From contig JACSRQ010000080.1 in NCBI GenBank assembly GCA_014879675.1, positions 1-35,873 of the forward strand: a stretch of DNA of 35,873 nt. Direction: 5' to 3'. The position numbers and the translations under genes are program-made. This DNA is from Ignavibacteria bacterium. GTDB lineage: Bacteria > Bacteroidota > Ignavibacteria > Tepidaquicellales > OLB5. The notes under the pieces are model-generated. The model had not been told where the DNA came from, did no database searches, and was given only the letters and a program-made list of their open reading frames with translations. How positions within the stretch are numbered: the first letter of the stretch is position 1; each line of letters begins with the position of its first letter. This document shows positions 27,955-35,873 of the stretch, piece by piece.

Positions 27955-28899
27955 TTAACTTGCTGCTCTCATTATTAAAAACACATTTAAAAGAGTGTAA
28001 ACTGCAACTACAGAATAAAAGCTGAGCCTATCAAGCTTCTTCGCTTTTTCGATATACACGGGTTTTTCGGTTTCATTCCACTTAAATGAAATAACAGCAA
28101 CCACAAGAACTACAAATATTGCAATAAATGTAATGTTGTGGATATTATCAAAAAGCGTATTTGATACAGTTGAAGGTACGGCTGATTCGACAATGTATTT
28201 GTTTCCAACCGCTGCAAATAATCCGCCTACACAAAGCCCGAGCCTGTCAGATGGCTTTACGAAGAATGCAAGCAGCACGATCGAAAAGGCAACATAAACG
28301 CCGGTCAGCATTTTGAACAGGGTGTTCCATGAATTTTCGCGGGTAAGATAAATATCAGCGGTAACAGAAGGGTATGTACTTGTGCCTTTTATGACCGGGT
28401 CACCGAATGTTGTATTATAAGTTTGGTTATTTACGTAAAATGCCAGTGAATCAATTTTCCAGTTGCTGAGAACAAGGTTAGAATCGATAGCGGAGTTGCC
28501 AATATCCGAAACAAACGCCAGCTTCTTTGTGTCATAAATAGTGTGATCAATATGGAGCGTGAGTTTCTGCTTATCGAAAGGAAATGCCGATACATCCCAC
28601 TCCTTAAAAACTACGGAATTGAATTTCATCATAACCCAATTAACGCCTTCCTTTTTCATTTGGGAATAATTTGAAAAAGAGGAGGACTTGGAGTTCGTTA
28701 CCTCAAGCGCATCATTGAACTGCAGGCTGTCATCTGAATAATTGACCCACATCCAGAAGTCTGCCGAAAAGCTCTGGTCGCTGATATTGAAATCAGTAAG
28801 AGAATTAAAGTATATGCCGATCTTACATGAATCTTCAGCTGATCTCAGCGGAGAGGAGATCAGAAATAATGCCATCAATATTAGCGGAATTTTTTTCAT
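27955..28899 (-). CDS. Pentameric ligand-gated ion channel-like protein (Cys-loop superfamily, prokaryotic)
   Basis: A 314-residue protein with the pLGIC plan. Signal peptide (about 1-21); an extracellular beta-sandwich of about 170 residues with the signature FPFDKQKLTLHI (106-117) and NWKIDSLAFYV; then four membrane helices at about 193-213, 219-238, 251-272 and 291-311. An ungapped match to the Gloeobacter channel GLIC, recalled from memory, covers KIGIYFNSLTDF, YPFD-like FPFD, the WxIxS strand and VESAVPST against VETNLPKT in the M2-M3 loop. It has no Cys-loop disulfide, as usual in bacteria. The predicted M2 is glycine-rich (GLCVGGLFAAVGNKY). The usual M1 proline is absent. Divergent from alkC, upstream of the acetyltransferase. 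Confidence 0.82.
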   Translation of the reverse strand: MKKIPLILMALFLISSPLRSAEDSCKIGIYFNSLTDFNISDQSFSADFWMWVNYSDDSLQFNDALEVTNSKSSSFSNYSQMKKEGVNWVMMKFNSVVFKEWDVSAFPFDKQKLTLHIDHTIYDTKKLAFVSDIGNSAIDSNLVLSNWKIDSLAFYVNNQTYNTTFGDPVIKGTSTYPSVTADIYLTRENSWNTLFKMLTGVYVAFSIVLLAFFVKPSDRLGLCVGGLFAAVGNKYIVESAVPSTVSNTLFDNIHNITFIAIFVVLVVAVISFKWNETEKPVYIEKAKKLDRLSFYSVVAVYTLLNVFLIMRAAS

Positions 28900-33447: not shown

Positions 33448-34395
33448 TCATTTCATAAAACTGAGGTTCGGCCTGCCCGAGTGGCCAAACAATCCGGCAT
33501 AAGTGCCTTTGAGATAGTAATACCCGAGCTTGAGATCGCAAACGCGCATAAACCAAAGCAATCTAACAGGGAATTTTAAAATATCCGTAAGATATGAGAT
33601 AAACATGTTAAGATAAAATTTGTGTTTTCGGAAGTACAGATATTTATTGCGCTGGATAAGGTAATACTCGAAGTAAAATCCCTGCTTGTTCTCCTTCACC
33701 CATTTGTGGTTATGCCACAGCACAGCCTTTTTGGTAACTATTGATGTGAAGCCTGCTTTTTTCAATCGTGCAGCCAGATCGATCTCATCGCCATAGGCGA
33801 AATATGCTTCTTCCCATAAGCCTGTTTTTTTCAGCGCTTCTGATCTTACAAGCATGGCCGCCCCGCTTACCATATCCACTTTCATGCTTGATGGTATATC
33901 CCTTTCAGATTCGGCAAGTTTTTTGCCTTCAAAGTATTTTGTAATACTGTACGTATCAAAATCTGCTTTAACGCCGTATTCCTGTATTACCGGATCCTTT
34001 TTATCAGCGGTGTAATACAGAATTAGAGGTGAAGATGCTGCTGTTTCCGGCGAGGCCTCAACGGCATTCACTAATTCCAGAAGGCAGTTTTCTTCAAGCT
34101 CGGTATCATTATTAAGGAATAGGATATATTTAAATCCATCTTTCATGGCCTTTTCTGCACCGAGATTATTGCCGCCGGCAAAGCCTGAGTTCTGCCCGGC
34201 AATGATGTATTCTATATCCATGCCTAGATTGCGGTTCAGCTCTGCGGAGTGATCCCTATCTATTGCATCGGGATTGTTATCCACGAAATAAATTTTGAAA
34301 TCTTTGTAGGTTTGCCTGTATAGTGAATTGTAAAGCAATTCCAGGTTATGCTTCTGGCGGAACATTACTAAAATGATCGCTGTTTGTTTTGCCAT
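33448..34395 (-). CDS. GT2-family glycosyltransferase (rhamnosyltransferase-like)
   Basis: A 315-residue GT-A fold enzyme. Nucleotide-binding start AIILVMFRQKHNLELLYNSL, FVDNNPD, QNSGFAGGNNLGAEKAM and the metal-binding DxD region LFLNNDTELEENCL; VSGAAMLVRSEALKKTGLW and YGDEIDLAARLKKAGF supply the acceptor-side acid. The pattern is common in rhamnosyltransferases of O-antigen loci, but the sugar is not fixed by sequence. It overlaps the upstream GT4 gene as ATGA (34395), implying translational coupling. No membrane helix is evident; it works at the cytoplasmic face. Confidence 0.93.
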   Translation of the reverse strand: MAKQTAIILVMFRQKHNLELLYNSLYRQTYKDFKIYFVDNNPDAIDRDHSAELNRNLGMDIEYIIAGQNSGFAGGNNLGAEKAMKDGFKYILFLNNDTELEENCLLELVNAVEASPETAASSPLILYYTADKKDPVIQEYGVKADFDTYSITKYFEGKKLAESERDIPSSMKVDMVSGAAMLVRSEALKKTGLWEEAYFAYGDEIDLAARLKKAGFTSIVTKKAVLWHNHKWVKENKQGFYFEYYLIQRNKYLYFRKHKFYLNMFISYLTDILKFPVRLLWFMRVCDLKLGYYYLKGTYAGLFGHSGRPNLSFMK

Positions 34396-35654
34396 CAGCC
34401 CTGTGAGCGGTTATGTTCTGAATACACCTTCTTGATGAGCCCTGTGTAGTAGGCGGAGACTTTTTCAATGGTATGGTTCTGTAAAACAAAATCCCTGCCC
34501 GCATCGCCAAGCTTTTTTGTTAAGCTGCGATCTGTAATGAGTTTTTCCATTGCCGAAACAACCGAATTGACCGAAAGCTCAACCAGTACTCCGTTTGAGC
34601 TGTTTATCAAAAGGCCGGTATCGCCGGTATTGCTTGCTATAACTGCATTGCCGCATGCCATTGCTTCTATCACACTTTGCGATGGGTAGTTTGTTCCCGA
34701 TTGCAGCGAAACAAATACAGAAGTGCCAGAGAAAATTTCCGGCGGATTTTTGTGGAACGTAAAGTTGATTTGCTCCTTCGGGCCGTTAGATGAAATAAAC
34801 TCGTTTACCGCGCTCACCAGGCTGCCTTCGCCGAGAATATGAAATTTAACGTCAGGGTACTTCTTCAGAATGATCAACGCTGCTTCAAGGTAAAGCATCG
34901 GATTTTTATCCGGTTCCAGCCTTGCTGCAAACGCAAACTCAAAACTCTCTTTACTGCCCGGTAAACACTTTGAATAATCTATGAATGAAGATGGAGCGAT
35001 ATTAATTTTATCTTCGCTTATTTTAACTCCGCGCTTTTTTACTCCCTCGGCAATGTATGGACTGAGGAAATCCACTGCATCAGCCTTTTCCAAAATACTG
35101 TTGAATGAGTAATATTTCCTGTACCAGAGCTTTTCGGTATCGGTCAACACATCGGTGAACCAGCTATCCATATCAGAAAAGATAACAGCGGGCCTTGAAG
35201 GCTGTTCAAAATAAAAAACCAATGGCGGCCCGCCAGCAAAGATGCCGATTAACACTTTTACATTATACTTTTTTACTAATGCGTCTATGCTATAGAATAA
35301 TTTCTTCTGCTTGAATTTGTTTTTGAAATACCAATAGTATTTCCTGGCAAGAGAAACCTGTTCATTCAGAATAAGCGGATCGGGAGAATTATCGTTATAT
35401 TGCACCGGTCCGGAAGAGTCAGTTGTTTCGTTTGCCCTTTCGCTTGTTTTCCCGATTACATCGATATAGTCAAATGTTTGAGCCGGAAAGATCCGCCGGA
35501 TGTGGCTTTCCATCAGTGGATTTATGAAGAGGCGGATATTATGCGGATGTTTTTGGCTCAGAAATGAGCTTAGATTCAGGAATCTTTTTTCAGCGCCGCC
35601 AAAAGCGCCGGTGCTGAAGATAACAAAAGCTGTATTTGGAAATCCGCTGTCCAA
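34395..35654 (-). CDS. GT4-family glycosyltransferase
   Basis: A 419-residue GT-B enzyme. N-terminal motif FVIFSTGAFGGAEKRFLNL; the second half has FEFAFAARLEPDKNPMLYLE, YPDVKFHILGEGSLVSAV and the donor-binding block SGTNYPSQSVIEAMACGNAVI with the conserved Glu. A long insert (about residues 65-110) is charged and low in complexity. The start is TTG at 35654; its codon follows a short A/T-rich leader and no ATG lies nearby. It is the first gene of the minus-strand GT4-GT2-GT-C-cupin series. A promoter must lie within the 164 bases before the adapter, but no convincing box pair was found. Confidence 0.9.
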   Translation of the reverse strand: MDSGFPNTAFVIFSTGAFGGAEKRFLNLSSFLSQKHPHNIRLFINPLMESHIRRIFPAQTFDYIDVIGKTSERANETTDSSGPVQYNDNSPDPLILNEQVSLARKYYWYFKNKFKQKKLFYSIDALVKKYNVKVLIGIFAGGPPLVFYFEQPSRPAVIFSDMDSWFTDVLTDTEKLWYRKYYSFNSILEKADAVDFLSPYIAEGVKKRGVKISEDKINIAPSSFIDYSKCLPGSKESFEFAFAARLEPDKNPMLYLEAALIILKKYPDVKFHILGEGSLVSAVNEFISSNGPKEQINFTFHKNPPEIFSGTSVFVSLQSGTNYPSQSVIEAMACGNAVIASNTGDTGLLINSSNGVLVELSVNSVVSAMEKLITDRSLTKKLGDAGRDFVLQNHTIEKVSAYYTGLIKKVYSEHNRSQG

Positions 35655-35818
35655 TTATAGATCAGTACTTAACAGAATTATGTTCAAACATAAATATATT
35701 TCCAAATATAGCTTACCTGCTGATTTATAGATAGTAAAAAATATAACGGAATCGGCATATGGCTTTCTAAACTCCCGTTTTTAGGGTATTAAAAAAGACT
35801 TGTAGTTATGATGATTGG

Positions 35819-35873
35819 CTGTCTCTTATACACATCTGACGCTGCCGACGACGGAGAGAGTGTAGATCTCGGT
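35819..35873. other. Illumina Nextera adapter and i5 index (non-biological)
   Basis: CTGTCTCTTATACACATCT followed by GACGCTGCCGACGA is the Nextera Read-1-side transposase adapter. It is followed by the 8-base index CGGAGAGA (reverse complement of the S511 index, from memory) and GTGTAGATCTCGGT of the P5 flow-cell adapter. Bases from 35819 on should be trimmed. Confidence 0.98.

Follow-up and report, generated by a model that had tools for sequence, protein, structure and literature searches.

A Nextera i5 adapter at the end of an Ignavibacteria contig, and further mosaic ends at contig ends throughout the same assembly

The last 55 bases (35819–35873) of the 35,873-nucleotide stretch of Ignavibacteria DNA that we analyzed, referred to here as the window, are almost certainly an untrimmed synthetic Illumina Nextera or Nextera XT adapter that was carried into the assembly, probably by read-through of a short insert. 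These bases hold no biology and no biological novelty. The artifact is of an ordinary, already known type (PMC11536531, PMC3906532), and we found no evidence against it. An earlier note, made from the sequence alone, had described the same 55 bases as a sequencing adapter left in the assembly. Its coordinates proved exact, and its reading is borne out both by the same adapter and index at sibling contig ends and by relatives that have normal genomic sequence at this position.

All 55 bases are identical to the first 55 of the 70-base reverse complement of i5 primer 511 plus the mosaic end, with the transposase end, i5 index, and P5 in the correct order, at exact spacing, and with 0 mismatches. 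From the genomic ATGATGATTGG, the window passes directly into the reverse complement of the Nextera transposase mosaic end, CTGTCTCTTATACACATCT (35819–35837, + strand), which is an exact and single match to the published sequence (PMC3906532). The mosaic end is followed directly by GACGCTGCCGACGA (35838–35851, + strand), the i5-side (read 1) primer arm in reverse complement, which matches both the trimming sequence in PMC3906532 and the published primers exactly. For read 2 of Nextera XT, the published trimming sequence is CTGTCTCTTATACACATCTGACGCTGCCGACGA (PMC3906532). The next eight bases, CGGAGAGA (35852–35859, + strand), are the reverse complement of TCTCTCCG, the i5 index 511 (S511) of the published Nextera list. 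Primer 511 is published as AATGATACGGCGACCACCGAGATCTACAC-TCTCTCCG-TCGTCGGCAGCGTC (PMC8225968), and the index is also listed, as S511, in PMC7757419. The contig then closes with GTGTAGATCTCGGT (35860–35873, + strand), in which the P5 complement is matched exactly over its first 14 bases.

The earlier note had named a Nextera transposase end, an i5 index, and P5, and had proposed a comparison with the published adapter list; that comparison identified index number 511 with no mismatch. All three parts were present, although P5 extends to only 14 of its 29 bases, as its outer 15 bases (GGTCGCCGTATCATT) are absent because the contig ends at 35873. Compared with the full-length index-511 i5 adapter of Nextera or Nextera XT, the window copy is thus truncated but otherwise the same in sequence, order, and spacing. 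The 19-base mosaic end matched the window once, even when up to three mismatches were allowed, against an expectation of 0.00 from 100 shuffles. No second adapter was found in the window, its left end included; a search of the window for TruSeq adapter with up to one mismatch and a comparison of the window with Rfam likewise returned no match.

The genomic side of the junction was located by homology. The last genuine genomic stretch (35692–35818) is intergenic, and its homologues in same-genus relatives form the leader of a conserved gene that reads rightward; the start of that gene is lost here. Identity to these relatives was 75% for G002 and 70% each for G008 and G012, and G010 was 81% identical over the last 43 bases before the adapter. 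The alignments reach exactly 35818, where the query ended, and a query with the whole tail also stops there. In the reciprocal direction, the relatives' own continuation again matched this genome only as far as 35818, and longer pieces of their downstream DNA added only homologues located elsewhere. Past this boundary, the relatives continue with TTTTTAGATTTATA... into the conserved gene, whereas the window switches to adapter. Since homology stops at 35818 and the relatives continue differently, the sequence comparison places the last genomic base at 35818 and the first adapter base at 35819. By eye, the start of the conserved gene looks lipoprotein-like. No proper counterpart was found in this assembly, where the only match, located elsewhere, was 22% identical; the contig thus breaks off within the leader, and the bin appears to lack the gene itself.

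The adapter is not confined to this contig. We scanned the whole genome (3,787,316 bases, 255 contigs) and found 68 exact mosaic ends, compared with 0 matches to a reversed control pattern. None of the 68 (e.g., C3:19–37, C95:29–47, and C245:34–52) is more than 55 bases away from a contig end, and all point outward: the 38 reverse copies sit no more than 53 bases from the start of their contig, and the 30 forward copies no more than 55 bases from the end of theirs. In the four contigs that extend beyond the index (the window contig, C94, C95, and C245), the index is always CGGAGAGA, as a single library would predict. We read 40 other contig ends, and 38 of these continue as i5-type adapter as far as the sequence goes. 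In the remaining 2 of 40, the mosaic end is followed by the i7 arm CCGAGCCCACGAG(A). These i7 tails were found by direct reading of the ends; a 15-base i7-arm search of the genome gave no match because the two tails stop after 13 and 14 bases. More distant relatives show the same kind of contamination, with 27 mosaic-end copies in G014 and 4 in G033, and a single copy is present in G019.

Among the 40 ends read, the commonest adapter tails were exactly 19 bases (15/40) and exactly 37 bases (13/40) long. Nineteen bases is where the i5 arm and the i7 arm part, which would present a graph assembler with a fork. The 37-base tails end inside the index, after CGGA, and are strongly over-represented in this genome. 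We consider it a long shot that both lengths record assembler graph forks on shared adapter k-mers, in which case they could flag contig ends suitable for rejoining once trimmed.

Short-insert read-through would account for the adapter in a few steps. Tn5 tagmentation would have added mosaic ends and index primers to both ends of each fragment. At least one fragment ending at 35818 was presumably shorter than the read, so that the read entered the complement of the i5-side adapter. If the reads were then left untrimmed or were incompletely trimmed, the assembler may have kept adding adapter bases to the contig for as long as reads supported them. Inserts shorter than the read are the cause given for adapter read-through in Nextera XT data (Turner 2014, PMC3906532), and we infer the same cause here.

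Comparable cases are on record. Moeller et al. 2024 reported TruSeq adapters in MGnify genomes, concentrated at contig ends and with many copies per assembly (PMC11536531). As in those cases, many contigs of the present assembly are affected, the assembly is fragmented, and the adapter stands forward at right contig ends and as its reverse complement at left ends. In contrast, their screen was for the TruSeq universal adapter, while the sequence here is the Nextera mosaic end. We scanned public genomes with the 33-base arm, which gave at least 120 stretches, and with one viral contig added, at least 127 occurrences were read. Among the occurrences listed, the arm lay a median of 14 bases from the contig end, and almost all indices that follow it belong to the standard Nextera list. 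Entries 501–520 of that list agree with PMC8225968. Many unrelated public assemblies among the matches listed likewise have this motif at their contig ends, joined to different but valid indices.

Several of the public contigs are of separate note. One sequence (L174, IMGVR_UViG_3300028613_000024) has an identical adapter, again with index 511, and a contig of Ignavibacteriaceae bacterium BA9 (L111, JACSRR010000203.1) ends in a 37-base tail whose index starts with CGGA, as in the window. Both possibly come from sequencing projects related to that of this assembly, a connection that a shared index alone is insufficient to show. Four other contigs (L067, L082, L116, and L125) carry the Nextera adapter 136–466 bases in from the contig end, and behind it comes run-off rich in G or A, or index-like repeats; here dark-cycle or chimeric reads were built into genome assemblies.

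Two other origins for the terminal bases deserve consideration. The Nextera mosaic end derives from Tn5 end sequences and sits exactly at the genomic junction, as would the end of a genuine Tn5/IS50-type transposon inserted at 35819 and cut by the end of the contig. What lies behind it, however, is the sequencing primer arm, a listed index, and P5 bases, with neither the outside end nor the transposase gene of a transposon encountered there. The index and P5 bases refute the transposon end. Furthermore, all 68 copies in the genome are at contig ends, versions with the i7 arm also exist, and none of 12 same-genus relatives contains a mosaic end. We regard a genuine transposon as vanishingly improbable.

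Alternatively, the contig or a library molecule could be a chimera, in which an adapter dimer or ligation event joined two unrelated genomic pieces through the adapter and the contig was cut there by chance. A few public contigs do have adapter well inside the contig end, by up to 466 bases. In the window, by contrast, no sequence follows the adapter, which occupies the contig up to its final base; the other contig ends of this genome show the same arrangement, and the DNA preceding the adapter is normal sequence that relatives conserve. These observations make a chimera extremely improbable.

The significance of the finding is one of quality control only, namely that 68 contig ends of this assembly contain foreign synthetic bases. 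Such tails can yield false short open reading frames, false motifs common to unrelated genomes, and needless contig breaks. In the window, the adapter is crossed by three short open reading frames that run off the contig end (35789–35872 and 35806–35871, − strand; 35808–35873, + strand); these should not be annotated, in keeping with the earlier warning that any gene call there would be false. The trimming that the earlier note called for amounts to a cut after base 35818, which leaves 1–35818, and should be extended to the remaining contig ends, as the problem is assembly-wide rather than limited to the single end that it described. Trimming followed by reassembly is the published remedy, and adapter removal led to fewer breaks (PMC11536531).

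The glycosyltransferase gene at 34395–35654, like the rest of the window, is untouched by the adapter. Elsewhere in the window, a 314-residue protein encoded at 27955–28899 (− strand) matched Pfam PF02931 (neurotransmitter-gated ion-channel ligand-binding domain) weakly, though above the cutoff, and also matched models of ligand-gated ion channels below the cutoff. Judged by these profile matches, the protein is likely a relative of the bacterial pentameric ligand-gated ion channels.
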